From: Dictyophora rubrovolvata
Lineage: Eukaryota > Basidiomycota > Agaricomycetes > Phallales > Phallaceae
Direction of reading: 5' to 3'
Assembly (NCBI GenBank): GCA_029959195.1
Contig: CP114124.1
Span: forward strand, 620,001 to 684,000
Length of the DNA stretch: 64,000 nt
Of this stretch, positions 35,861-63,287 are shown one piece after another. Each line of letters begins with the position of its first letter. The stretch's first letter is position 1. The notes under the pieces were generated by a model. It saw only the letters and a program-made list of their open reading frames with translations, was not told the DNA's origin and searched no databases. Position numbers and translations under genes: made by a program.

Positions 35861-36495
35861 GAGGTTTACTTTCTGATTCTGGACGGCATAGCAGAATAAC
35901 AATGAACGCTTAACTTACATATCTCTAGTAGTACTACCAGTTCACTGAGTAACAAAAACGTACAAATTTTTCAGATTCAAGCAGAGTAGTTGAAGCCGGA
36001 AACCCAGTATTCCCATCACTTCTTACCAACCACCGTCCACCAGTCGGTTTAGAAGAAAAAAACATAGTTGAAGATGACTTGTTGAGTTTCATTGAATCTC
36101 CCTTCCATACGTGCCAGTTCCACTACCACCATCTCCATCAAAAATGCCTGCTGCCGACGCGTCACCTTGACGTGTACTTACTACTTACTATTATCGGACC
36201 AAACTCAACGCCATGCTACTTCAGTGATTCGCAGTCAGATCAGGCCGGACAAGATGGCGCTGCGATCACCCTAAACAGTTTAGAAAACCTTTCCCGGAAA
36301 AAAAAAAGAACTAGATGGAAAATAATACTGATTAGGTTTTTCCTCCAGCTGAGGGCGGTTCTAACTTCAAAAGTAAAAGTTGAGATCAGTTCAATTATAT
36401 CAATAAATTATCGGGACAAGGCATTGCTTCTAATGATATTTGTAGCTAACGACAGGAAGGTTGCAACTGGCAATCAATTTCTTAACAAAGCAAAA

Positions 36496-38143
36496 TTACG
36501 GTGATCTTATTTCATTAAGGACCGCAAAAGTATAGTTCGTTTGAGCGAATCCTACCATGCCATTGTCATCGTCTAACACAACATAGTGACGTTGCCTGCG
36601 CGTTCATTTGCAGTGATGAGAAAACAAAACCGAGTAAACGACAAAAAGGAGATACATACATATAGGTCAACCCCATTGTACACACATTCGTTGCGATGGC
36701 ATCAGCGATGATGAGATATATCCCATCCTGTTCTCCATCAATCATAGAATTAATCGCTGTAGGCCATATTTGAGCATCAGGTACGAGTTCGTAGTCACTC
36801 TAAAAAAAAGTGGTTCAGAAGCTTGGAATTGTCCTGTTAGACCGTCGTACTTCTCCAATATGATAGGTCATGTTTTGCAATTGACTGGAATCATTGACCC
36901 TCAAGAAACCGTTGCTTTGATCTTGTACAGCACCAGTTACTTCGATGTACTTTTCCCATGCCGGATGGGGTAAAAGCGTCAATGGCTCCGCTATGGTAAA
37001 TAGTACAATCAGGTAAATAGAACAAAAAGTAGCATGTCATCACAAAGAGCTCACTCGATTGAACAAGGCATGGTCCTTCGAATATTTGTGATTCACCAAC
37101 CCTAAAGCAGAAAATATTAAATTGACTTGGGTTGCAGTGTGTATATATCCTCACGTGATTGAGACGTCAACAGAAAAGGTAGTATTGAACACAGGTTGGT
37201 TCGTAATCGGGACAAATTTGACGTCTGAAATTAGACTTTCGTTATTGATCGAGCCCCAATCTAGGCGTCCCGTCTCGTTCGCAGGTGTCATGAGTACACC
37301 TACTAAATTCTTTTGAATTATATTATCCTTGGCCAGGTTTTGCGGTATGGTAGGAATAACCTCAGTTGTGTTGGGGCTTAAAATACCAACGGTTTGCACA
37401 GACCTGCCGATACCCAAGACACCGTCATGACCTAGAAAATAGAATTCCGAATTTGTAAAAATGGCTAGAGTACCGATACATCCTACCGTCAAACCCAGTT
37501 GTTATTTTTGTGGAGGATGCTACCCCAATGGATTGCATGAATTGTCCTTTAATACCCGGAAGCTGCATAATGTCGATAACTAATAATATTTAGAATAAGG
37601 TGATAGTTCCTTTTTCGCGCGAGAGTTTTTCTTACATTCTTCACCAGAGGCAACTTCTTCAATACCATAGCTGACAACAACACTCTGTCCAGTATTGGTG
37701 GACGAGCCCGAAGGACGATAGGGATGTGTCGTATTGGCTCCAATCCATATATTCGCCGTGAAAGTGTCAACAAAGAGTTTGTACGACCCGTCTCCGATTT
37801 CAACATCTATAGTAGTTACGGCTATTAGCTAAAGCATATTAGTTAGCGAAAACATTATTCTAAACGTGAAACGAAGGCAATATGCTGTATTTACGTTGTT
37901 TGCCACCGGAGATGAGTCCGGAGGTTGGTCGCTCGATGAAGAGCGAGCGTATTTGCGATCTTGTTTGATAATATCACGCCCAGTTAATTTCGTGTCAGGA
38001 AAGACGAAACGTGTCTTCAATTCTGTGGAGTACGGGTCTGGGTTTGGTCCCGGCTCGTCAGAAGCCCGACTCGAGAAACGTTGTGGATTGCAAACCGCAA
38101 GACTGCTAATGCATAGAGTAAAGAGCAATGTATAGCCTTTCAT
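36496..38143 (-). CDS. Pseudo-aspartic-protease A (polyporopepsin-like A1 fold, catalytic motifs lost)
   Basis: A1-fold secreted protein related to polyporopepsin. ATG 38143 gives a signal peptide (MKGYTLLFTLCISSLAVCNP); an in-frame ATG at 38188 is a weaker alternative. Family blocks in order: GDGSYKLFVDTFTANIWIGA, DGVLGIGRSVQTVGILSPNT, ETGRLDWGSINNESLISDVK, then EGPCLVQSTEPLTLLPHPAW across an intron, AQIWPTAINSMIDGEQDGIY and, after the last intron, QRHYVVLDDDNGMVGFAQTN, ending at TAA 36496-36498. The first catalytic triad is Asp-Thr-Phe where Asp-Thr-Gly is expected; the second aligns as Gln-Ser-Thr, so the second catalytic Asp is gone. All exons read through with good splice sites. It is therefore probably expressed but unable to cut peptides, perhaps a binding protein or inhibitor. 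Sister of gene B at 40988. Confidence 0.8.
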
Positions 38144-38188
38144 GTGTGTGAGACTGAGGAAACAAAGCGAGGTGCTGGACAGACACAT

Positions 38189-38880
38189 CTCTGGTTCTTA
38201 TATTTATACTATGTAGCATAGTACCGCATACGCCGTTTAAGGAGTTTTAAGACCGTTTAGTGATGGTTTCACTGGTCCTAGTATGCACCGCAAGGACAGG
38301 CAAGGACCTGTCGATTGTTTTTATGCATACAATCCCCTTGTCTCTTCGCATACTGATTCGGACAGGGGGCGCAGTATTCACAGTATGGATCTCTACTGTA
38401 CATTGTTTTATGTATCGCATTTCGTTGCCCGTTGCCCGTTGCCCGTTGCCCGGATTCGACTCGACTCTCCGCATACACACATCCGCAAGGCTGGCCCGGC
38501 CAACGGGCATTACCTCCAAACACGGCGGCGTAAGGACCTCTCATATCCACTGCAAAATGGCCTAGATTGTTTTATGCATTGCATACGATCCCCCGTTTCC
38601 CGGATTCAGCTTGACCGCCCAGGGGTACGGTGCATGACCTCCGAGCACGACGGTGTTTCTACGACAGCCTTGAAACACAGCTTCGGACAAGGTAATAGAA
38701 AGAAAAAGTTCAAAGAAAGGTGATAGTCAGACTCCCGCCCAGTCGCTTTTTGTGTTATGTCTCACAGTCTGAGCCCGTTGTTATATATACAGTATATATG
38801 TGGTTCAAAAATATATTATAACAAAAAGGAGATATGTACATACATCCAACGGTCAACCAATATCGCTGATGATGATGAGG
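38189..38880. promoter_or_regulatory. 5' region of gene A
   Basis: The first 180 bases are nearly identical to the region upstream of gene B. A 7-bp tandem GTTGCCC (three to four copies, about 38423-38450) is found only in unit 1. Short frames here have no recognised domain. Confidence 0.5.
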
Positions 38881-40329: not shown

Positions 40330-43300
40330 GTTTGCTTTCTGATTATGGACGACATAACAGGATGACATTCTAAAAATTGATAAATGAACGCTCAACTTGT
40401 CTCTAGTAGTAGCGGCTCAGTAACAAACACGTACAAATTTTCTAGATTCCAGCAGAGTTCTGAGTAGTTGAAACAGGAATCCTGGAAGTATTGCCATTAC
40501 ATACTTCCAACTACGAGTATAGTCGGTTTAGAAGAATACATGATTGGAGATGACCTTTTGAACCCTCTACATGAATATCGCCAGTTCCATCGCCACCATC
40601 TTCATTACTGCTGATGTGTCACCCTGACGTGTGCTTATTGTTATTGGATCAAACTCGGTGTCATGTTATTTCAATGATTCGCAGTCAGATCAGCTGGTAT
40701 GGTAAACTTGTGATGCCGGACCAGACATCGATGGTGCTGCGACCACTGTAATTGAAACTGTTTCGGGGGGTATTCCCGAAACAAAAAAAACTACATAAAA
40801 AAGTAGTGCTTATAGGGTTTTTCTCCAGTTGAGGGCGGTTCGAACTTCAAAAAGTAAAAGTTGAGATCAGTTCAATTATATCAATAAATTATCGGGACAA
40901 GACATTGCTTCTAATGATATTTATAGCTAACGACAGGAAGGTTGCAACTGGCAATCAATTCCTTAACAAAGCAAATTTACGGTGATCCTATTCATTAATG
41001 ACCGCAAAAGTATTGTTCGTATTAGCGATTCCTACCGAGTTACTCTCATTGTCTAACATCACATAAAAACGTCCCCTGCACGTTCATTTGCAATGATGAG
41101 AAAACAAAGCCGAGTAAAGGACAAAAAGGAGATACATACATAAAGGTCTGTGCCAGTACACACGTATTATTTGATCCGGCGGGTTCAGCGAAGATGAGAT
41201 ACGTCTCATTGTGTACTCCATTTGCAATAGCAGTATTGATCGACCTAGGCCATATTTGGGCATCAGATATGAGGTCGTATGTATTCTAAAAAACGTGGTT
41301 CAGAAACTTATAATTGTCGTGAAAGATCAGGTTAGACCGTCGTACATTTCCAATAGCAAAGGACAAGGTTCGCAATCGACTGGTATCATTGATCCTCAAG
41401 AAATGTGTGTTGTTATCCATTACAGCACCAACTAGTTTGGCGTACAGGTTGAAGGCGGCAGTGGGCAAGAGCGTTTGTGTATTCACTATGGTGAATAGTG
41501 CAATCAGGTAAATAGAATAAAAAGCGGCACGTTATCTTGAAGAGCTCACGCGTATCCAAAATGCATTGTACTCCTTCGACTAACGTTACTGATTGGTTTC
41601 CGTCACCAAACCTAGAACAGCACATATTGAATTGAGTTGGGTTGCAGTATGTATACATCCTTACTTGATTGAAGATACATCAACGTTCCAGGATGACTGT
41701 AAACCAGGAACTTCCGTATTCGGGACAAAATTGACCGGTGAAGTTAGCTGCTCGTCACTGATCCCGCCCCAATCTATGCGCCCCACAGTGTTCGTACCCG
41801 GGGGCGGTATGAATATACCTGTCCTATTTTTTTGTATTAAATCATTATTGAGCAGATTTTCCGTTATTGTAGGAATAAGGCTTTCGTTGGGGCTTAAAGT
41901 AATAATTGTCTGTATAGGCTTGCCAATACCCAAGACACCGTCAACACCTAGAAAATACAATTGAGAATTTGTAAGAATAGAGTGCCAATACATACCCTCA
42001 AACCCTTCCGAGGCACTTGCCACCCCGAAGGATTGTACGAATCGGGTTGGTATATTCGTAACCTCTACAAGGTCGACAACTAATAAATAATATTTGGAAC
42101 AAGAATATGATAGTTTTCCCTTTTTTTTTCGCGCGGGAGTTTTTCTTACATTCTGTACCGGTGACGCTACCGATGAAGTTACCAACACTATATTGGACAC
42201 GAACATTTCGACCAGTATTGATAGACGAGCTCGAAGGACGATAGGGACTTGACGAATCGACTCCAATCCATGTATTCGAGTCTGTAATGTCGAGAGCGGC
42301 TTTGTACGTCCCATTTCCGACTTGAAAGCCCTCTATCGTAACAAGCAGGCTGAATAACTAAAGCCTATTAGTTAGCAAAGACCATCATTCTAGATGTTGT
42401 TGAACGAAGGCAATATGTTATATTTACGTCATACGTCAACGGAGTTTGCGGGGGTTGGTCGCTCGATGAAGAGCGAGCGTATTTGCGATCTTGTTTGATA
42501 ATATCACGCCCAGTTAATTTCGTGTCAGGAAAGACGAAACGTGTCTTCAATTCTGTGGAGTACGGGTCTGGGTTTGGTCCCGGCTCGTCAGAAGCCCGAC
42601 TCGAGAAACGTTGTGGATTGCAAACCGCAAGACTGCTAATGCATAGAGTAAAGAGCAATGTATAGCCTTTCATGTGTGTGAGACTGAGGAAACAAAGCGA
42701 GGTGCTGGACAGACACATCTCTGGTTCTTATATTTATACTGTGTAGCATAGTACCGCATACGCCGTTTAAGGAGTTTTAAGGCCGTTTAGTGATGGTTTC
42801 ACTGGTCCTAGTATGCACCGCAAGGACAGGCAAGGACCTGTCGATTGTTTTTATGCATACAATCCCCCTGTCTCTTCGCATACTGATTCGGACAGAGGCG
42901 CATTGCTGTTCCACGGCCATGACCGGGACCTCCGACGAGCGCGACGGTGTTTCTAAGACAGCCTCGAAACACACCTTTGGACAAAAAGTTAATGAAAGAA
43001 AGGTGATAGTTAGACTCCTACCCAGTAGCTCTTTGGATCACAGTCCGAGCCTGTTGTTATGTGATTTGAAGGATATATTGTGACAAAGGAGATTAATACA
43101 TACATACATACATCCAACCAATATCGCCGACGATGATGAGGTATATTATTTATATTTGATTGGTTCCTGCTTCGGCTTAGAGTATGCCGTGGCCGAATCA
43201 GGAAAACATACATAAATAAATATAGTAGCAGGAACTTGCAGTGTCTTCACGGCCGCGGGCATAATAAAGCCAAATTCTAGTAATTGCCTTATTCACGTTG

Positions 43301-50779: not shown

Positions 50780-52062
50780 GTTGTGCCCACTCCAAAGACT
50801 TGAAATGTTCCTCAATTTGAATTGTGATGAACATACATTCACAAAGATGGAAATCGAAGACGGAGATTTCGAGAAAATGGGAGTTCAAGATAGAAATGAT
50901 TTGTAACACAAATAAGAATTTAACAAGATAATATTGAATCGAATCAAAGTTTGATTTCAAGACAACTTTAACTACATATTTACAGTAAGTTTTAAATACT
51001 AGTTAAATCATCCAGGGTCAAGAACAAAGAAAGTACAAAAATAGAATAGTACTTAATAGTTCTTGTCTACATCGTGTTTCATTAGAATCTTATAGAATGC
51101 AATGGAAAACATTCTATATATATCATGTGAACTTTACAATTAATCATTGAATTTGGTGGTTCGCGGTAAAGTTCGGTTGTAATTCGTATAACGGTAAATC
51201 GTTATAATTCGTGAGTATGGAAAATGAGTGTCATGAGAAAACGGCTCATGACAGTACTCCCTCCTGTTACGAGCTGGAACATGCGTACTGTCAGGGCTAC
51301 TCACTCAGACTAGAGGGAGGGGATCCTAAGTAACTGTATTGGATAAATACTAACTAACTCACCTAGAGGGAGGGGATCCTAAGAGAACAAACTTAGGGAT
51401 CCCTCCTCTAGGGCTACTAACTATATACTATGAAAAACGGCGAAGGTCATACGCGGCCTTCGGTTCATGGACTAGGCGCCGATACGCGCCGGTCCCAGGC
51501 TTTTAGTTGGGGCCTAGGCCATGGCTCTGATGGAACAGGTGCTCAGTGCCCGTTGAAGGGAAAAATGGGAATATGGAAGGAGAGGGAAATGCAAGAGATG
51601 GGATAAAATATGAGAAATATGGAAATGAATAAAATAGACCAGAACCAAAGATAAACAGAGGAAAAGAAGGGGACAACGTGTTAAGTACCGATACCCGGTT
51701 TGGGTTGTCACGTGTATCTAAGTCAACTATCGTAACTAAAGTATACAGTATGATGGCCCCGACGATGTAGAGTGTGACCTCAACCTGAGTGGGTTGTGTC
51801 ACGACAGTCCTCTTGGATAGTTTGCTCTACTAGTCGTCACGATGTTCGAGATCTTCTAAATGTCGCCTGATATTCTTAAGACGAAGCTCTAGGAAGTCGA
51901 TGACTATCTGGTAAAAGATATCGTCGACTAAGAAACAGAAGAAGAGTAGATGGAAGAGATAGCGTAGCCAACGCCTTGTGGGTGCTGACGGTTTAGACTT
52001 AAAGAATTTAGGCGTGATAGAAACGAATGTAGAATGGGTAGACTATATTGAGATATCGAACT

Positions 52063-52468
52063 TGTCAGGGTACGCTAGCGTCGTCCCCTTATTTTTCTAC
52101 ATTTATCTTCGGTTCTGGTCTATTTTATTTATTTCCATATTTCTCGTATTCTATCCCATCTCTTGCATTTCCCTCTCCTTCCGTATTCCCATTTTTCCTC
52201 CAACAGGCGCTGAGCACCCGTTCTCATCAGAGCCATGGCCTAGGCCCCAGCTAAAAGTCCGGGACCAGCGCGTATCCGCACCCAGTCCATGAACTGAAGG
52301 CTGCGTGTGGCCTTCGCCGTTTTTCATAGTATATAGTTAGTAGCCCTAGAGGAGGGATCCCTAAGTTTGTTCTCTTAGGATCCCCTCTCTCTAGGTGAGT
52401 TAGTATTATTCCTAGAATATATTTTGCTTAGGATCCCCTCCCTCTAGTCTGAGAGAGTAGCCCTGACA
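52063..52468 (+). mobile_element. TGTCAGGG element, short form 2, complete (406 bp)
   Basis: Exactly 406 bp from TGTCAGGGTACGC to GTAGCCCTGACA, flanked on both sides by GAACT (52058-52062 and 52469-52473). The related LTR at 62441-63287 shows the same place without insertion, with GAACT once (near 62824). It is the youngest of the nested insertions here. No coding potential. It contains the subterminal inverted and direct repeats listed separately. Confidence 0.92.
52345..52395. repeat. Subterminal hairpin of the TGTCAGGG element
   Basis: CCTAGAGGAGGGATCCCTAA and, after a short T-rich loop, CTTAGGATCCCCTCTCTCTA form an imperfect stem of about 20 bp. A third copy of the motif, CTTAGGATCCCCTCCCTCTA, lies in direct orientation at 52427-52446. 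The same arrangement recurs in every family member with this end: short form 3, and elements X, Y and Z. Confidence 0.85.
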
Positions 52469-53867
52469 GAACTAGGTTCGATATTAAGTCTAAGGAAAAG
52501 TCTAGCTACAATGTATAGAGCTTTATATACATGTACGCTAGTTAATTGAATCTCAGTTCGAAATAGGATTCGAACTTGAGAACGTATACAAGACATAACA
52601 GATTCATAGGATTCGTAAGTATATGCAGGGTTGGTTTGCCATGTAGCAAATATGAGGCAACAAGAACAAAGGAAAACACATACAGGGACCCATGGTCGTC
52701 ATAGATGATATCATGTGCAGTTTGAGTCTAGAGTATAGACCCAAGGTCTAACCGTGGATGTACAAGGATAGAACTAGTTGCGTTGTCTAGATCTTCCTGA
52801 GACGAAGTGTTGAAGTCCAGGGGACTTCGACCGTGGCGTCTATGTAATATCACAAAGATAAGAAAACAATTAGATATGATAATGAATGTGATAGGATAAG
52901 AAAAATGTAAGCGCTAGTGATGTTATGAATCGGATCATGACACAATGCTAGCATACCCTGACATGTACAAAGTCTGGTGAGGTTAATGTGAGAGATAAAC
53001 GGTAGGCTTCAACTTGCTCTTGAGTTGTGCCCTCACTGTGCGCATCCATTAACTTCAAGCCATGTGGTCGAGACGTCTGATGCGCAAGCACATGGTTCAG
53101 ATGATGCGTTATGATGTTGGGAAACGTCGTTCCGAGCGAGACAGGGAACACGGGTTACAACCACGTCGTACGATGGGTGAGAGAGTTTTGGCGACGTCAT
53201 GCACGTCACCCCAAATGTTGAGATAGAGATTTTAAGATTTGAGATGAAACATTGGCAGCATCTGCAATGCCACCCATGGTGAAACAAGAGATTAAGAAGA
53301 AGAGAAGGTGTTTCAAAGAAGCTCAGTGTAACAAGTAACAAGGTGAAACTTCTATTGATATCAGAACGGAAAAAGTAGATACATTTAAATTGATCCTTTT
53401 ATAGAAATGAAATGTGATGACCAATATGAAAAAAGGATGGTGCAGACAAGTTTGGAAATGGTGACTTCAGGGAGTTGCCCAATAAGGAATGAGTGGGGTT
53501 TTGGAAAGTTAAGCAAGGTTATGTACGCACTAAGCGGGCATAACGCCTCCTTAAGATCAAGCCCTCAAGATCCCTGTGTCCAAAAATACCTAAAATACTT
53601 ATGTTTCTGTCATGAAACATTTCCAAAAATGCAAGAGAAAAGAAATGCAGGGATTCACTTAATGCATACTGAAACAACGGTGTTGATCATTATTACCACA
53701 AAAGGAATTGGTAAAAATATAGCTGGGTGGAAATTAACATGTGACTCAGCTTTGCTGAAAATTCTGAAAAGCAAAAAAAAGCCTATAAAGTCAGTGTTGT
53801 TCAACATTGTTTCTTCAAGCTTTCTTGCTTATTTCTCCCCACCATCTTCATTGCCTTTCCTTAGCAA

Positions 53868-54214: not shown

Positions 54215-54821
54215 TGTCAGGGTACACTAGCGTCGTCCCCTTCTTTTCCTCTGTTTATCTTCAGTTCTGGTCTATTTTATTCTTTTCCATATTTCTCATA
54301 TTTCATCCCATCTCTTGCTTTCCCCTTTCCTTCCGTATTCCCATTTTTCCCTTCAACAGATGCTGAGCGCCCATTCCCATCAGAGCCATGGCCTAGGCCC
54401 TGGCTAAAAGCCCGGGACCGGTGCTGTAAGCTTCACTATGCGCAAAAGGAAAATAATATGCCTAGTGAAATACACAAGAAAAGAATGGATGAGGTAGTCA
54501 ATCTCCGCGGAGCAAGTCCAGGTGCTGCTTAGTACAAAATAGGAGGGGGGAGGTGATGGAAACAACAACAAATAACAACAACCAAAAGACGGTTACTGTT
54601 AACAAATCAAGGGTTGCTTGTGAGGCAAAGTACGATAATCGCGATAACTCAGATCGCAAGTTTATACTCCGAAATGTACAGTCTCAGAGTTTTCCAAAGG
54701 TAAAGACGTGAGCGTAGAGATAGACAAGAGGCAAAACCAAAAACACTAAACAAAAACCACAAACTTAAACTTGAGTCAAACCAACATAGGTATTGCTGCT
54801 GTTACAGGTATTTATATGCAG

Positions 54822-54829
54822 TATTTATA
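54822..54829 (-). promoter_or_regulatory. Conserved TATA-like block of element X
   Basis: On the minus strand ATATAAATACTGCAT is followed by TGTAACAGCAGCAAT. The same block occurs in element Y at about 61632-61673, with much less similarity around it. It lies downstream of both open frames, so it cannot drive them. Confidence 0.5.
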
Positions 54830-55320
54830 TGCTTTGGAACAATAAGAATGTTTTTGGACTTTGAGTGGCAACACAATTAGTAATTGTGAGCTGGATTTGT
54901 AATAAAGAAGGAAAAGAAACAAAGAGAAAAGCGAGTAATAAAAAAAAGGGGCATATGAGTCAGTGAGGCTATACTATTATAAAGAGTGAACAAAAGAATT
55001 TCAAGGCAATGACAAAACAAAAGAAAGAAAGGAGCAACACAAAAGAATGGATTTAGAATCAATACAAGTACAAAAGGAAAGAAAAAGGAGCAAACAAGAA
55101 AGGAAACGATGAGGATAGGAGGTCATTTTATTCATCCTTACTAATTTTCCCAAAATAGACATCACCATTGATAAGCACTTCACAGCCTCAGAATTTTGAT
55201 CCCCATCTCCTTCCTTTAACCTCGGAAACAATGTGCGTTCGCCACTGCCATATGTATCCACGTATTTTTTCATTGTTGAACTCTTGTTAAAGAGCTCCAA
55301 TCGTATGGAACTAAAGGTCT

Positions 55321-55779
55321 TCATTCAAGGTACTCAGGAAGCGGTTGGGAAGTATCAACCTCTAGCGGACAGTAGTCAGGGGCAGGGTGATTGTCGATCG
55401 CATTAGTGGGAGCATCCATGAAAAGAAATTCATCATGATAAAGAAGTGGTCGATGGAATATGAACCGCCAAACAGGTTGTTCGCTACGATGAAACTGGCA
55501 AATCTGAACCAATTCATATGAATGAGTGAGTATGTTGATATGGATTATTTTGTTCACTTTTGGATTCTCTGGGAATTCCAGTTTCTCGTAGGGTACCTGG
55601 TATTCTTGAATGGGGACTAGAGAATGCAGCCATAACATACTTCTGTCTACCTCGATGTTTGTACCAGAGATGTGATAAATCCGTATTGTTAATATGAAGT
55701 TGGTATATCGTTCATCCAAAGTTATCCCTGTAAAAGGGGTAAGGAAGGAAGGAAGTGGGGGCAAGTGATTTGTAGCCAA
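55321..55779 (-). CDS. Element X open frame 2, unknown family
   Basis: About 150 codons, related to element Y open frame 2 (60736-61314) along most of its length. Shared blocks: IEVDRSMLWLHSLVP against IDVDPSTMLPITPQP; VPYEKLEFP against IPYDDLEIG; HSYELVQICQF against ELYEFVEFLST; EQPVWRFIFHRPLL against EESIWRLVFRHQFQ; and DEFLFMDAPTNAI against TQFLFIDAPLSAI. No signal peptide, membrane helix, zinc motif, DDE or reverse-transcriptase motif is seen. The exact start in this copy is not clear. Function unknown. The preserved frame and the pattern of conserved aromatic and acidic residues suggest it was once under selection as a protein. Confidence 0.6.
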   Translation of the reverse strand: MATNHLPPLPSFLTPFTGITLDERYTNFILTIRIYHISGTNIEVDRSMLWLHSLVPIQEYQVPYEKLEFPENPKVNKIIHINILTHSYELVQICQFHRSEQPVWRFIFHRPLLYHDEFLFMDAPTNAIDNHPAPDYCPLEVDTSQPLPEYLE

Positions 55780-55940
55780 GAGGTTGCACAGAGCTCATGA
55801 TGGAAGAGAAGGATAAGAAAGGATGGAATTAATTTAGACTCCGAAAGAAAAGAAACAAGACAACAAAAGAGGGGAATAAAAAATAAAGAATTCCTTGTTT
55901 TTCGTTTTAATTAGTCCTGATTATTCAAATGAAGTACTTC

Positions 55941-56633
55941 CTATGGCATTATCCCAGATGTCTTAAATATAGCCGAACAGAATTTCCGAAGTCGATGTAG
56001 CTTGGGGACAGTAGAAACAGGAGTCGTAGGACAAAAAGAAGGTGATGAAGGTTCGGTGGGAGGATCAAAGGTGGAGATAGGAGGTTTAGGAGTCATGGGA
56101 AATTGCGGAGTACCAGAATCATAGAAAGGAAGGAAAAATTCAGGTTCTGGCGTGTGCTGATATTGATGACGAATCCATGAACAAGGGACATCGAATACAA
56201 TGTGCCAGAATGCATGTCCATGTTCAGCAGTAGCCCATATCCTAGTAACCGTGTCCAGTAGACCTATGTGAATCATGTCCAGTAGACCTATGTGAATCAT
56301 GTACATATTCACCACAATGAACCATTCTTCATATCCTGCTAACCATAATCGTGTTCCAAAAGAAACCTTCTTATCGTCCGCATCTGAATACAAGATCAGA
56401 TCCGAAGCTTTATGTCGACTGATAATAATGGGGTTCGGGTATAATGGTAATAAGGTGGAGGGATCGAGGTTGAGGTGCGCATAGGATGTGAAGTAGACGT
56501 AGTGCTGAGTATCCAAATCACAGAGATTGATATCAGGAGTAGGAGGGACAAAATGAAAACAATCAGAGTTATCGATAGAAGGAGCATGAAGGGATGGCAG
56601 GGAACGAGAAGAGCGAATCTGGAGTGAGGACAT
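55941..56633 (-). CDS. Element X open frame 1, unknown family
   Basis: About 230 codons from ATG 56633 (MSSLQIRSSRSLPSLHAPSI). Related to element Y open frame 1. Shared blocks: LCDLDTQHYVYFTSYAHLNL against DLDLHTTLYIYSSQYVSLDI; STLLPLYPNPIIIS against TYLPKFPPPLIIHQ; EEWFIVVNMY against LDWFTIINVY; and RIWATAEHGHAFWHIVFDVP against RIWLVTQEGFEFTFLVLDVP. It also resembles open frame 2 (DPSTLLPLYPNP against DPSTMLPITPQP, and the Asp-Val-Pro motif). The tail is Pro/Thr/Ser-rich, ending in a basic stretch (KLHRLRKFCSAIFK). A 24-bp in-frame tandem duplication gives MIHIGLLD twice. No known domain is recognised. Confidence 0.65.
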   Translation of the reverse strand: MSSLQIRSSRSLPSLHAPSIDNSDCFHFVPPTPDINLCDLDTQHYVYFTSYAHLNLDPSTLLPLYPNPIIISRHKASDLILYSDADDKKVSFGTRLWLAGYEEWFIVVNMYMIHIGLLDMIHIGLLDTVTRIWATAEHGHAFWHIVFDVPCSWIRHQYQHTPEPEFFLPFYDSGTPQFPMTPKPPISTFDPPTEPSSPSFCPTTPVSTVPKLHRLRKFCSAIFKTSGIMP

Positions 56634-56966
56634 ATCTTTTGTATCAATGTTTTTGGGATAAAAAAATGTTTGGACGTGGGTTTTGGGTAGTTGCAAAAGT
56701 AAATTCAAGCTCCGAGGGACATATCATGGGATTAGGGAATCTTCGGAACATTTACCCTAATTTTTGCCAAATATAGATTTTGGTGCGCGACAGCACGTAT
56801 CTGTGCCCAGTCCATGAACCGAAGGCTGTGTATGACCTTTGTCGTTTTTCATAGTATATAGTTAGTAGCCCTAGAGGAAGGATCCCTAAGTTTGTTCTCT
56901 TGGGATCCCCTCTCTCTAGGTGAGTTAGTATCTTTCCCAAAATATATTCTCTTAGGATCCCCTCCC

Positions 56967-57372
56967 TGTCAGGGTACGCTAGCGTCGTCCCCTTATTTTT
57001 CTATATTTATCTTCGGTTCTGGTCTATTTTATTTATTTCCATATTTCTCGTATTCTATCCCATCTCTTGCATTTCCCTCTCCTTCCATATTCCCATTTTT
57101 CCTCCAACGGGCGCTGAGCGCCCATTCTCATCAGAGCCATGGCCTAGGCCCCGGCTAAAGGTTCGGGACCAGCGCGTATCCGCGCCCAGTCCATGAACCA
57201 AAGGCCGCGTGTGGCCTTCGTCGTTTTTCATAGTATATAGTTAGTAGCCCTAGAGGAGGGATCCCTAAGTTTGTTCTCTTAGGATCCCCTCCCTCTAGGT
57301 GAGTTAGTATTATTCCTAGAATATATCTTGCTTAGGATCCCCTCCCTCTAGTCTGAGAGAGTAGCCCTGACA
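56967..57372 (+). mobile_element. TGTCAGGG element, short form 3, complete (406 bp), nested in X
   Basis: Exactly 406 bp, TGTCAGGGTACGC to GTAGCCCTGACA, flanked by CTCCC at 56962-56966 and 57373-57377. The target is the subterminal repeat of element X itself. It closely resembles short form 2. No coding potential. Confidence 0.92.
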
Positions 57373-57403
57373 CTCCCTCTAGTCTGAGTGAGTAGCCCTG
57401 ACA

Positions 57404-58278
57404 GAATTTCTGCCCTTAACCAAATGCGACGACACCCTCAACCTCCTCCTATCCGGCAGATATGCTCAAGGAGGTCAAACTGTAGAGGATTATGTGGACT
57501 CCTTCAATGTCCTCATAGAGCGTGCTGGCTTCATGGATGGCTTCGCCATCACAATGCACTTTCAGCAGGGATTAGACCCGACAATTCAGTCCAAGGTTGC
57601 TACCATGCAGAGCCGACCCACATATGAGGATTTCGAAGGCTGGATCAAGGCTGCACGTGTTTTTGATCAAGATAGAAGAGCAAACGAAGCCTTCAGTGCC
57701 ACTTGACATTGCCAACTCCCAACCCCATCGGTTCCTAATCCCTTGACGATGGCTCCTATGTCTTGTCCTAGACCGGTACCCTTCCTACCTTTAAGACCCA
57801 CTATCCCCCAGTATCAACCACCTCCATTCCCACCTCCTAGGCCAGTTACTCCTGGGTTTGCTGCTGCCCCATCTAGGCCGTCAATTCCGGTTCAACCTCC
57901 TCAACAACGTCATGACCCGATGGACATTGATGCCACACGTTGATGGATGACCAGGGAATCCACTAGATGTTACTATTGTGGACAAGCTGGGCATCTCATG
58001 TGTGACTGTCCTCGCATGCATGACATTCGTTTCGTGAACACAGATGAGATTGGCAACCTTGTTGAACTGCTCCTTGCCCAGAAGGATGTTGCAGAAGCAC
58101 AGAGTCGTGCAGGGCCTGGACCAACAGAGGAAGAAGAGACTCCTGCATCAGTAGCAACAGAGGATTTTCAGGAAGGCAGCGAGTGAAGGATACACCCTTG
58201 TTGCCGACATTTAATAGATTTGATGTTTTGTACATAGATCGTGAACAAAATGATGATAGTAATTTGAATCCTATTACC
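57404..58278 (+). mobile_element. Gag-like fragment of a Gypsy-type LTR-retrotransposon
   Basis: A piece of a gag-type gene: the region starting LSGRYAQGGQTVEDYVDSFN resembles the gag domain of Gypsy-type elements in mushrooms (QGLDPTIQSKVATM, ARVFDQDRRANEAF). It is followed by a Pro-rich linker and a retroviral-type zinc knuckle, CYYCGQAGHLMCDC (Cys-x2-Cys-x4-His-x4-Cys). No protease, reverse transcriptase or integrase follows. The element is broken and incomplete. It lies between element X and element Z. Confidence 0.75.
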
Positions 58279-59242
58279 TGTCAGGGTATGCTAGTGTCAT
58301 CCCCTTCTTTTCCTCTGTTTATCTTTGGTTCTGGTCTATTTTATTCATTTCTATATTTCTCGTATTTCATCCCATCTCTTGCTTTCCCCTTTCCTTCTGT
58401 ATTCCCATCTTTCCCTCCAACGGGCGCTGAGCGCCCATTCCCATCAGAGCCACGGCCTAGGCCCCGGCTAAAAGTCCGGGACCGGTGTCATGTATTTCAT
58501 GATTTCCTCCCTTATCTACCCAAAAACAAGTATTTTCTTTATTCTTTTTTTAGTTCCTGCTTGCTTTAATAATCCTTTATTTGTAATGTATCTTATCTTT
58601 CAGGAACAGTCAGATGACTTAGTTCCAGGAACCCCTTTATTTTCTTATCATCTCTCTCCACTTCCCTGTCTCACTATAATTTTCCCTGATCCACTATTAT
58701 TCATTCACTTCCTTTTTAAGTAATTTCTTATCTTTCACATGATATTTCTCTTACTAATGTTTGGAGCTATTTGTACTTGCTCAAGGTGTATAAATAGGGG
58801 CTCATTTCTCTTGTAAATAATCTATCTTGTAACTACTGTTGTGCACTAAAGTGCTTACCAATCAAATTGGTCTTTTTCCTCTTATCTTTTTCTATTCTCA
58901 AGGACTTAGTAATAAGTCCCTATCTATCTCTACTAATTTGAACTTAATTCTTAAGTTCAAATCTTCCTTCAAGAGTCTCACCTTCAATAACAGGACTTTT
59001 AGTTGCTGAACAATCCCTAAACAAAACTCCATTATATTTTATTAGAAACTAAGCCTATTCTAAATCTAAAACAAATCCCTCACACCTTCGCCGTTTTTCA
59101 TAGTATATAGTTAGTAGCTCTAGAGGAAGGATCCCTAAGTTTGTTCTCTTAGGATCCCCTCCCTCTAGGTGAGTTAGTTAGTATTTATCTAATATAGTTA
59201 CTTAGGATCCCCTCCCTCTAGTCTGAGTGAGTAGCCCTGACA
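58279..59242 (+). mobile_element. TGTCAGGG element, variant Z with a different interior
   Basis: Both ends belong to the TGTCAGGG family (TGTCAGGGTATGC at 58279, GTAGCCCTGACA at 59242, with subterminal repeats). The interior at about 58487-59089 is unlike X, Y or the short forms. That interior itself begins TGTCATG and ends CCCTCACA, and has a TATAAATAGGGGC motif near 58790, so it may be a solo LTR that entered a short form with loss of about 45 bp. Outer flanks (TTACC and AATAC) do not match. Confidence 0.65.
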
Positions 59243-59536: not shown

Positions 59537-60081
59537 TATGATGTGGTGGTACCATGTGTTCCCCGTCTCCCATGTAACGATGTCTCCCGACATTATAATG
59601 CATTGTCTGAACCATGTGCTCCCCGCGTCAGACATCGTGACCACGTGACTTGAAGTTAATGGATGCGCACAGTGAGTGTCAGGACTACTCACTCAGACTA
59701 GAGGGAGGGGATCCTAAGTAATTATATTTTGGGAAAAATACTAACTCACCTAGAGGGAGGGGATCCTAAGAGAACAAACTTAGGGATCCCTCCTCTAGGG
59801 CTACTAACTATATACTATGAAAAACAGCGAAGGCCATACACGGCCGTTGGTTCATGGACTGGGCGCGGATACGCGCTGTCGCGCACCAAAATCTTCCTAA
59901 TAAGGAAACGTTCCAATTTTTGGTTCAAAGTGGAGTTTCAAACTACCAAAAACTTAACCGATACACCACAGCCTCTCGAAATCAAAACCCTTACGAAAAA
60001 TGGCCGCATTTTCATTTCACTATACATCATCAATCTCTTTGCCCATTCCAGCATCTCCCACCGAGTCATTACCCCCCTCTG

Positions 60082-60624
60082 ATGATGAATCTATCGCCTT
60101 TTCGTTTTTCGCCTTCCAGTCCAAGGACATACGATTTGGATCTGCATACGACTCTTTATATCTATAGTTCCCAATATGTGAGTCTCGACATCGACGAAGA
60201 AACATACCTCCCAAAGTTCCCTCCACCTCTTATTATTCATCAATGCAGAAGTTCGGATTTGGTTCACCCCGGTCTCATGTTTGGAGAAAAGGTTTATATT
60301 GAGGAACGATTAGACTGGTTTACAATTATCAACGTTTATTCTACACCCAAATCAGCCATTAAAGACTCATATCGGATTTGGTTAGTGACACAAGAAGGGT
60401 TCGAATTTACATTCCTGGTTCTAGATGTGCCAAGTTGTTGGGTTGTCATGAAAAACATGAAAACGCAAAAACATAGCCCATATAGACTGGCCAATCTTGT
60501 TCCTGTAGATCCTCAAATGTCTTGTTTTTCACCCCATTCGCCAGAACCAATATCTCTCCCCTCTTCTCCGTCCAAACGATCCTTCCGAAAGATCCAACGT
60601 GTTTGCTCAAACCTTCTTGGATGA
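60082..60624 (+). CDS. Element Y open frame 1, unknown family
   Basis: 180 codons if started at ATG 60082 (MMNLSPFRFSPSSPRTYDLD); the frame is open upstream to 59854 through the element end. Related to open frame 1 of X. Conserved points: the YDLDLHTTLYIYSSQYVSLD block, PPPLIIHQCRSSDL, LDWFTIINVY, and RIWLVTQEGFEFTFLVLDVP followed by SCW. The C-terminus is Ser/Pro-rich, then basic (KRSFRKIQRVCSNLLG). It has no signal peptide or transmembrane helix. I recognise no domain. The alternating hydrophobic pattern suggests a compact beta-rich fold, which is inference. 111 bp separate it from open frame 2, same strand. Confidence 0.65.
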   Translation: MMNLSPFRFSPSSPRTYDLDLHTTLYIYSSQYVSLDIDEETYLPKFPPPLIIHQCRSSDLVHPGLMFGEKVYIEERLDWFTIINVYSTPKSAIKDSYRIWLVTQEGFEFTFLVLDVPSCWVVMKNMKTQKHSPYRLANLVPVDPQMSCFSPHSPEPISLPSSPSKRSFRKIQRVCSNLLG

Positions 60625-60735
60625 AATTAGAACAAAAGGCTTGTTTAGGATAAGCGATTAGATTTGTATTTCATCTCCTTCTTTCCTTCTGGACATTTCA
60701 TTAGCGCTTGAAAATTTTGGTTAACTCATATCATC

Positions 60736-61314
60736 ATGTCGGACAATAACGATACTCCTACTTCCCCTATTCCCCTTTTTCAACTCCCTTTCTTCCCTTT
60801 TGAATATTGTTCTTCTCTCAGATTTGGACCCAACCCTAATTTCCTCTCACGACTTTGCGTTTACAATACTCTTGTTTCTGAAATTGATGTCGATCCCTCC
60901 ACAATGCTTCCGATTACTCCACAGCCACTAATGGAGATTACTATTCCTTACGACGATCTGGAGATAGGATATCCACGAGCTTTAACCCTGTACGAACGAA
61001 CTAACGTCAATGTCATGGATGAATTGTATGAGTTTGTTGAGTTCCTTTCAACAAATCGTCAAGAAGAATCAATCTGGAGACTGGTCTTTCGTCATCAATT
61101 TCAAAGTTATACTCAATTCTTATTCATAGACGCACCCCTATCTGCCATCCCATCCCCTCCCGACTACTCTGTTGGAAATCAAACCCTCCCTTCTTATTCC
61201 AATCTCCAATCCAATCTCGTTCAAGATCTGATATTGTTAAGTGTTGCCATAGCCATTATTATTACGCCACAGCCACGAAGAAGAAGATCTCGTCAACAAG
61301 AACCAGATCAGTAA
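60736..61314 (+). CDS. Element Y open frame 2, unknown family
   Basis: 192 codons from ATG 60736 (MSDNNDTPTSPIPLFQLPFF). Related to open frame 2 of X and, more distantly, to open frame 1 of both elements. Conserved points: SEIDVDPSTMLPITPQP, ITIPYDDLEIG, MDELYEFVEFL, EESIWRLVFRH, and TQFLFIDAPLSAIPSPPDY. The C-terminal part, not matched in X, has a hydrophobic stretch (LVQDLILLSVAIAIIITPQP) followed by a basic run (RRRRSRQQ), which could be a single membrane anchor with a cytosolic basic tail or a localisation signal. Function unknown. Confidence 0.65.
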   Translation: MSDNNDTPTSPIPLFQLPFFPFEYCSSLRFGPNPNFLSRLCVYNTLVSEIDVDPSTMLPITPQPLMEITIPYDDLEIGYPRALTLYERTNVNVMDELYEFVEFLSTNRQEESIWRLVFRHQFQSYTQFLFIDAPLSAIPSPPDYSVGNQTLPSYSNLQSNLVQDLILLSVAIAIIITPQPRRRRSRQQEPDQ

Positions 61315-61630
61315 GAAGTTTGGGATGGTAAGGTTATAGTTTTGGGTAAGAGGTAGCATGAGAAGTGCCAGATGGTGATTTTGGTAAAGCTATGCTGGGA
61401 ATCCGGTTTCATCGTTTTCTTTTGATTTCTCTTTTGTTTCTCTTTTGTTTCTCTTTTGTTTCAACATATTTCTCCTATTCCCCCTAACCACATATGCGAT
61501 TCCCCTTTTTCTGTAATTGTATCCTCCATCATTTTCTCCTTTTTCTTTTGTTCCTTTGTTCTCTTTTGTTTCCTTTTGTTATCATGATGAATGATGAGTG
61601 ATCATTCCGCTTTCCTTTATGTTTCCAAAC

Positions 61631-61673
61631 GGTATAAATACTGCATGTAAATACATGTAACAGCAGCAATCTA
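61631..61673 (+). promoter_or_regulatory. Conserved TATA block of element Y
   Basis: GGTATAAATACTGCATG followed by TGTAACAGCAGCAAT, shared with element X. It lies about 320 bp after open frame 2 and reads towards the nearer end of the element. A TATA box followed by several hundred bases to a CA end is the layout of U3-R-U5 in an LTR. Confidence 0.5.
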
Positions 61674-62440
61674 CCAGAACGGTTGTCTCAAGTTTTAGTT
61701 CAGTTTAAGTCAAGTTCAAGTCAAGTTTCGTCTCTAGTCTATTTCTACGCTCATGTCTATTTCTTTGGATTACTCTGAGTGAGGCCTCAGAGTATAAACT
61801 CAACGATTTGTATTGTTGTTAAAGCCTTACTAACTTTAAACAGAATATCATTGCTGTATTATCAATGGCGTATTGACACACGATTTTATCGTAAACTCAC
61901 ATTTATCGTCCCCCTCACACACACATGATTTTAGGATCATCATTTTTTTATTGTTGTTGGTTTTATATCAACGCACACACACTCGCTAAATATCATATTA
62001 TTCCCCCACCCTCCTCCTTACGAAATCAGCACCAGGACCCGCTCCACAGAGACTAGACGGCCTCAAACAAAATATCTTCATAGTTTTTCCGATTGTATAT
62101 ATAGCTACGACATTTAGCTTTTATCTTTGGATCGTTACAGTGCCAGTCCTGGACTTTTAGCCAGGGCCTAGGCCATGGCTCTGATGGGAATGGGCACTCA
62201 GCGCCCGTTGAAGGGAAAAATGGGAATATGAAAGGAGAGGGGAAAGCAAGAAATGAAATGAAATACGATAAATATGGAAGTGAATAAAATAAACCAGAAC
62301 CGAAGATATACGGAGGAAAAGGAGGGGACAACGTTAGCATACCCTGACAGTGAGGGCACAACTCAAGAGCAAGTTGAAACCTACCATTTATCTCTTGTGC
62401 TAACCTCGCCAGACTTCGTACATGCGTTCCAGCATGTAAC

Positions 62441-63287
62441 ATTAAGTACTGATACTTGGGTATTGACAATGCTTGTATAGATGTTAATAATTGTATTCAA
62501 GAACAATACAAATGTCACCGGGGGTGTAGAGCGCGACCTCAACCTGAGTGGGTTGTGTCATGACAGTCCTCTTAAAGATTAGCTCTACTAGTCTTCATGA
62601 TTGTTGGGATCTTCAAGTCTTCTTTGGATGTACCCGAGATGAAGCTCTAGAAAGTCTAGGACAATCTGGAAGAAGAGATCGTCGACAAGGAAACAGAAAA
62701 AGAGGAGGTTGAAGAAGTAACAAATCCAATGCTGGAACGGCATTGTTTCAGGAAGCGGTTTAGATGAGAAACACTTTGCAATGGTGGAATCGTATAAAGG
62801 AAAGAAGACTCTATTGAGATATTGAACTAGGTTTGATATTAAGTCTGAAGAAGAGTCTAGCTACGATGTATAGAATGGTTTATATACATGTACATATGCT
62901 AGATGTTTGGATCTCAGTTCAAAATAGATAATGAACTTAAGAACATATACAAGTCATAACAATTCATGAGTATCATAAGTATATGCAGGGTCAATTTGCC
63001 ATGTGGCAAGAACAAAGGAAATTCCTATGACAACTCATGGTCGTCATAGATGATCTCATGTGTGGTTAGGGACTAGAATATAGATCTAAGGTCTATCCGC
63101 GGCTTACTGTAAGTCCTAGGAAGACAACAGCATCTAGGATATGGTAGAATGGCAATGAAGTCTGGTGAGACTTCCGATCATGGCATCTGTGAAGCAATAT
63201 TAATAAGATGCAGATAAAATACAATAATAATAGGTAATATTGTTATTAATTCGTATTACTAAAGTGTCATGAATTCGGGTCATGACA
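62441..63287 (+). mobile_element. LTR of the second retrotransposon family, without the nested insertion
   Basis: Aligns with 51679-52942 apart from the 406-bp insertion and its target duplication. It ends GGGTCATGACA at 63287. A sharp internal inverted pair (TGTCATGACAG near 62556 and GTCATGACA at the end) may mark an alternative start of the LTR. Many differences from the other copy, so it is old. No matching target duplication is seen. Confidence 0.65.

Follow-up and report, generated by a model that had tools for sequence, protein, structure and literature searches.

The element Y in the genome of Dictyophora rubrovolvata is, at minimum in its outer frame, a true insertion, and it belongs to a repeat family whose members have been found with and without genes in a single 64,000-nucleotide stretch of DNA (the window). 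Insertions with matching empty sites, common ends, a fixed inner junction and an old homologous gene pair were all directly observed. Judged by sequence, the gene pair split long ago while staying coding, and yet it now appears to sit in young frames. A reading with about an even chance of being correct is that Y and its relative X are composite structures of the LTR type, in which an older module (M) with accessory genes in its U3 part is nested in a 406-bp LTR-like unit (S).

A repeat family with and without genes

The members of the family, with the relevant parts of Y and its empty site, are located as follows.

59677-62349, plus strand: element Y, 2673 bp, TGTCAGGA...CCCTGACA, with GTGAG on either side
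59677-59876, plus strand: left (L) end of Y, with TATATA at element position 133
62140-62349, plus strand: right (R) end of Y, containing AATAAA
52964-53175, minus strand: paralogous empty site of Y, with a single GTGAG
54215-57403, minus strand: element X, 2778 bp once the nested S2 is discounted, lacking a target duplication
52063-52468, minus strand: S1, 406 bp, gene-less, GAACT duplication; empty site (paralogous) at about 62660-62980
56967-57372, minus strand: S2, 406 bp, gene-less, nested in X, CTCCC duplication
51289-52963, plus strand: S3, 406 bp apart from a TGT..ACA unit nested in it, gene-less, with CGTAC/TGTAC as outer repeat; empty site (paralogous) at 62350-62441
51679-52942: TGTTAAG..CATGACA unit nested in S3, repeat CAACG/CAATG, with S1 inside
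58279-59242, minus strand: Z, with the family ends, a different 604-bp middle and no duplication

The conclusion that Y was inserted follows from its GTGAG duplication and its paralogous empty site: when the two flanks of Y are joined at one GTGAG, they align across the junction with the minus strand of 52964-53175 at 178 of 215 columns. The initial annotation had proposed these boundaries, the 5-bp duplication and the mobility of Y. Inspection of both flanks bore out the first two, and the duplication together with the empty site supports the third. The end sequences needed one correction, in that the bounds hold but the left end reads TGTCAGGA rather than TGTCAGGG. The latter motif is nonetheless abundant, with 11 occurrences in the window against 1.41 expected and no more than five in any of 100 shuffles.

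Y had been described as one of two inverted copies. Self-comparison and inspection instead revealed at least six family members within about 11 kb (S1, S2, S3, X, Y and Z), three of which (S1-S3) are without genes. The empty site of S1 is 72.8% identical over 323 columns, and that of S3 is 83.7% identical over 92 columns with a left flank there of only 24 bp. Once its nested unit is removed, S3 measures exactly 406 bp, the same as S1 and S2. A relative of that nested unit, 73% identical, lies at 62512-63102. X is itself split by S2, a complete 406-bp member with its own CTCCC duplication, and the outer flanks of X (GGTTC/GAATT) do not form a duplication. In the middle of Z (58481-59084) the TATA box points the opposite way, and similarity to M is no higher than chance; this middle looks like a different LTR-like unit, reversed. 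This stretch has the form TGTCATG..CTCACA with TATAAATAG and is not bordered by a clear duplication.

Pairwise identity among the six members is 88.1-97.5% in the L end and 84.7-96.1% in the R end, and Y compares with the other five at 91.1-93.6% and 84.7-87.7%, respectively. All six have TG..CA ends. Four carry a 5-bp duplication, exact in Y, S1 and S2 and with one C/T difference in S3, whereas X and Z are without one. As short patterns only, TATATA is present at position 133-134 in 6/6 members (for Z, once its ends are placed in register), and the R end of all six contains AATAAA, near position 340 in the short form. TG..CA ends and a short target duplication of 4-6 bp are the hallmark of a solo LTR. 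With these ends, 5-bp duplications and the TATATA and AATAAA patterns, the short form resembles a solo LTR, and S1-S3 do look like solo LTRs from their sequences. The resemblance to the solo LTRs of Ty3/gypsy or Ty1/copia elements includes the TG..CA, short inverted termini, 5-bp duplications, TATA and AATAAA patterns and mutual nesting. The family differs from them in that X and Y are 2.7-2.8 kb long with two genes inside, and no gag-pol body was seen in 50-64 kb of the window.

As single-stranded DNA, the 406-bp unit S1 (52063-52468) folds better than 100 of 100 shuffles (z -3.06), an effect mostly owed to inverted CTAGAGG/GGATCC motifs.

The inner module, its genes and their age

X and Y each consist of the 406-bp unit plus M, which interrupts the unit at the same nucleotide both times and measures about 2.37 kb in X and about 2.26 kb in Y. 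The parts of M are as follows.

59877-62139, plus strand: module M of Y, about 2.26 kb, TGTCGCGCACC...TTACA, GCGC on the left and GTGC on the right
60082-60624, plus strand: Y ORF1, 180 aa from ATG
60736-61314, plus strand: Y ORF2, 192 aa, with a C-terminal hydrophobic segment and basic tail
61616-61800, plus strand: TATA/leader block, the part of M best conserved between X and Y, at 68.6% identity
55941-56633, minus strand: X ORF1, 230 aa from ATG
55321-55794, minus strand: frame of X ORF2, 157 codons, lacking an in-frame ATG ahead of the conserved part

The left junction of M in X and Y reads GATACG(C/T)GC|TGTCGCGCACCAAAATCT and the right junction TTACA|G(T/C)(G/A)CC, and the uninterrupted site in S1-S3 reads GATACGCGC(C/T)GG. 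In both copies M starts with TGTCGCGCACC, stops with TTACA and is bordered by GCGC or its CpG-decay products; between the TGT..ACA ends lie the two ORFs and then the conserved TATA/leader block. X and Y agree at each of the initial 18 bp of M. Such a junction is consistent with the insertion of a TGT..ACA unit and a GCGC duplication that decayed at CpG sites. By a crude uniform-base model, framed post hoc, TG..CA plus such a repeat has a probability of about 3e-5 per registration. The 4-bp repeat could also be the microhomology of a deletion, which would not explain the TGT..ACA ends.

Two adjacent open frames on one strand are confirmed in each of X and Y. The claim that X has the same ends and the same two frames as Y thus holds for the outer ends and for the arrangement of the frames, but the second frame of X is probably broken, as read from its sequence, because no ATG in that frame precedes the conserved part. 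At 260 and 248 codons, the longest open frames of the two middles, which are the ORF1 frames, exceed those in all 500 dinucleotide shuffles. Within X ORF1, at 56247-56294, a 24-bp tandem duplication keeps the frame and encodes MIHIGLLD twice.

The four protein sequences (X1, X2, Y1 and Y2) are related by BLAST, with X1-Y1 at 28% identity (E 2.5e-21) and X2-Y2 at 29% identity (E 6.3e-20). Matches between the two ORFs were also obtained (X1-Y2, E 9.6e-6; Y1-Y2, E 2.3e-4), with no significant BLAST similarity for X1-X2 or X2-Y1, and on these scores ORF1 and ORF2 are taken to be paralogues. The homology rests on the BLAST scores, since global-alignment identity (31%, 31%) does not rise above a shuffled-codon null (means 28%, 27%; maxima 37%, 43%). 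Six columns are invariant across the four sequences, and two of these are aspartates, which do not look like a DDE site, with the caveat that an alignment of four sequences excludes little.

The initial annotation could place neither protein in a family, and this is upheld by searches of the four frames against Pfam, NCBIfam (best E 0.13) and PHROGs (best E 0.08), none of which gave a significant match. A PDB sequence search with Y2 reached a best E of 0.58, and a PDB search with the four-row profile gave nothing convincing, the top hit being coagulation factor IX (E 0.015). AlphaFold models built on the four-sequence alignment have a mean pLDDT of 56.4 for Y2 and 51.7 for X1; the best blocks (pLDDT 74-83) fall in a beta core with weaker stretches between. 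With moderate confidence at best, they predict a beta domain with strands at 37-134 in Y2 and 41-150 in X1. Neither model had a fold match in the PDB at E<=0.001, and the Y2 model had none among viral models. The order of the strands and a Pfam hit for Y1 that fell below threshold (E 0.042) prompted consideration of an SH3-like fold, which was then dropped. Relatives were also absent from two non-fungal collections, one of viral contigs (searched with a protein profile and a DNA motif) and one of genome contigs (one protein and one motif).

The ends and the middle of these elements differ greatly in age. The ends of X and Y are 91.0% (left) and 87.0% (right) identical. Through M the identity falls to 47.0% before ORF1, 47.8% in ORF1, 45.6% between the ORFs, 48.3% in ORF2 and 45.6% after it, then rises to 68.6% in the TATA/leader block and is 55.6% from there to the right end; five shuffled controls run through the same aligner gave 40.0-43.7%. 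The matching non-coding stretches claimed for X and Y therefore comprise the two ends of about 200 bp and one promoter block of about 185 bp, with most of the remainder near random. Deviations from the majority base are 72 transitions and 10 transversions in the R ends and 40 and 18 in the L ends. This excess of transitions is as expected if the end differences are mostly post-insertion decay.

Within the genes, 95 of 299 aligned residues are identical, and among identical residues the fourfold sites agree at 15 of 38, with about 10.5 expected from base make-up. Silent divergence is saturated (pS 0.84 and 0.83; pN 0.49 and 0.47), and hence no dN/dS value is given. A codon-position pattern was dropped as evidence when shuffled codons gave nearly equal values. 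The order of ORF1 and ORF2 has been kept in both copies across near-saturated silent sites, which argues that they were coding for most of their divergence, and purifying selection on the gene pair is suggested.

Possible retroelement remnants and the search for mobility enzymes

The lack of any recognised DDE, reverse transcriptase, integrase or tyrosine-recombinase motif, already asserted for the two copies, extends to their surroundings: 0 of 30 ORFs of at least 80 aa in 50-64 kb matched a transposase, reverse transcriptase, integrase or tyrosine recombinase in Pfam. An LTR pair enclosing a primer-binding site, gag-pol (with reverse transcriptase and integrase) and a polypurine tract is not present in the same interval; inspection by eye beside the members revealed neither a primer-binding site nor a polypurine tract. 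The missing gag-pol makes a complete element less probable, and does not do so for a solo LTR, which lacks these parts by nature. An Rfam scan (51-63 kb) and a tRNA scan returned nothing.

One possible retroelement remnant lies between X and Z.

57404-58186, plus strand: gag-like fragment with a CCHC knuckle

Its Pfam matches (zf-CCHC, E 9.8e-4; Retrotrans_gag, E 0.038) both fall short of the curated cut-offs, and nothing downstream was recognised as pol. The frame seems to begin mid-protein at the border of X, with profile position 57 of 97 reached at residue 25. X was considered as the LTR of this neighbouring gag and rejected, since the X promoter points the other way and gag seems to begin mid-protein. 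An aspartyl protease gene is also present in the window, and with the gag-like fragment it gives this DNA a fungal look. Elsewhere in it, a host duplication (36291-38373 and 40773-42902) is patchy, with 300 nt at 99% identity, 143 nt at 97% and other blocks at 72-82%, and looks like gene conversion active nearby.

Possible origins of X and Y

The initial annotation offered two explanations. The first, a two-gene element that mobilises itself by some novel chemistry, is not supported, because S1-S3 inserted without the genes, TG..CA, TATATA and AATAAA occur in 6/6 members and the module sits at one fixed site. The second, a giant LTR or non-autonomous element whose cargo has persisted, comes closer, but the gene pair appears to be nested in LTR-like units.

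In the composite model favoured here, the frame would be the 406-bp LTR-like unit S, which inserts with a 5-bp duplication, and M (about 2.3 kb, TGT..ACA) would be an older LTR-like module residing in S at one fixed nucleotide. In M, the U3 part would bear both accessory genes, which are paralogues, ahead of a TATA/leader block of LTR type. S and M may both be LTRs left after LTR-LTR recombination, with a reverse transcriptase and integrase that acted in trans or were lost, and the genes may be retroelement accessory genes maintained by selection. The ends of X and Y could have been homogenised by recombination among copies that was unable to extend into the diverged M. It is very unlikely that M inserted at random twice at the same nucleotide and in the same orientation, so nesting needs shared ancestry plus such homogenisation of the ends.

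Several observations count against nesting. That X and Y have an identical inner junction is not easily explained by it when ends and middles are of such different ages. No LTR pair, reverse transcriptase or integrase was found in 50-64 kb. Furthermore, the inner repeat is 4 bp, whereas the outer family and the nested unit of S3 have 5 bp; X and Z are without target duplications; and the gag fragment beside X runs opposite to the direction of the X promoter. Free conversion between long and short copies is argued against by R-end sites 97, 100 and 115, which set X, Y and Z apart from S1-S3, and by two further sites, one in each end, at which X goes with Z. End trees, built on six short sequences, have weak support.

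The three R-end variants just named, together with those that X and Y have in common (56 and 61 in the L end, 18 in the R end), are what might be expected if X and Y were single giant LTRs, without nesting and with two genes in U3, the 406-bp copies being one amplified internal-deletion lineage. The R-end sites would then separate long from short copies, the variants common to X and Y would mark the long copies as one lineage, and the TATA/leader block is conserved. This alternative is unlikely in light of the very different divergence of ends and middle, the inner junction with its TGT..ACA ends and 4-bp repeat, and the TATATA and AATAAA that the 406-bp copies retain, which make them look complete.

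A somewhat less probable alternative is a non-autonomous TIR DNA transposon, with ends recognised by a transposase in trans and exchangeable cargo in the middle. Pack-type elements combine TIR ends with exchangeable cargo in just this manner. The conserved ends of about 200 bp do contain foldback motifs (0 of 100 S1 shuffles fold as well as single-stranded DNA), there is an 8-bp terminal inverted repeat (7/8 in Y), and the middle of Z differs from that of X and Y. However, an inverted repeat of only about 8 bp is short for such an element, the combination of TG..CA, 5-bp duplications, TATATA and AATAAA is LTR-like, and a transposase of known superfamily was absent from 30 of 30 ORFs in 50-64 kb. 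The available part of one report notes hAT lineages with 5-bp duplications, and also PlavakaA, which has TGT..ACA ends like those seen here and belongs to the Plavaka/CMCT group with an EnSpm-like transposase (PMC12730594). PlavakaA makes 2-bp duplications; the 5-bp duplications described here fall outside the 2-3 bp expected of that group, and no transposase was recognised. In the accessible part of a second report, short hAT families of a mushroom have ends in common with a longer, transposase-bearing one (PMC9674265).

It is improbable that M is a guest with site specificity, belonging to an old two-gene lineage and entering the GCGC site of young S units independently in X and Y. Such a guest would account for the equal nucleotide and orientation, for old middles in young frames and for the 18 initial bp of M being the same in X and Y when most of the remainder is not; against it, no recombinase or endonuclease was recognised in M, the ends of X and Y have variants in common and there are two cases only. 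Host genes captured once and now decaying as passengers are highly improbable: one of the four frames is without a start, but the ORF1-ORF2 order was kept in both copies across near-saturated silent sites.

For the composite reading, a parallel exists in mouse mammary tumour virus, whose sag is an accessory gene in the U3 of the LTR. In both copies the ORFs of M lie upstream of the TATA/leader block on the same strand, a sag-like position if M is indeed an LTR, with the coding sequence preceding the promoter and read in the same direction. The difference is that here there are two paralogous genes, without a library match, in a fungus. To our knowledge genes within LTRs are rare, and solo LTRs would be expected to lose internal genes quickly. 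For the modular arrangement, the available part of a study of crapaud in Podospora anserina describes LTR subfamilies of 339-443 bp whose variation lies mostly in the part of U3 ahead of the TATA box, and proposes recombinants between subfamilies (PMC10787394). As far as that part goes, crapaud is likewise one LTR family with one highly variable and one conserved LTR part, but in the present family both ends are conserved and the gene-bearing middle differs. In the open PMC literature, at the level of titles and abstract openings, none of the matches listed concerned these ends or this gene pair.

A gene pair that kept its order and frame to near silent saturation must, over most of that period, have been of use to an element or to the host. 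Only tentatively, we suggest an LTR-type family with two long-lived paralogous U3 accessory genes of a new protein family and with much younger ends, a modular LTR in which the ends and the coding middle evolve separately. If genome data bear this out, fungi would supply an instance of accessory genes encoded in an LTR, and the family would illustrate cleanly how the ends and the middle of an LTR can have separate histories.
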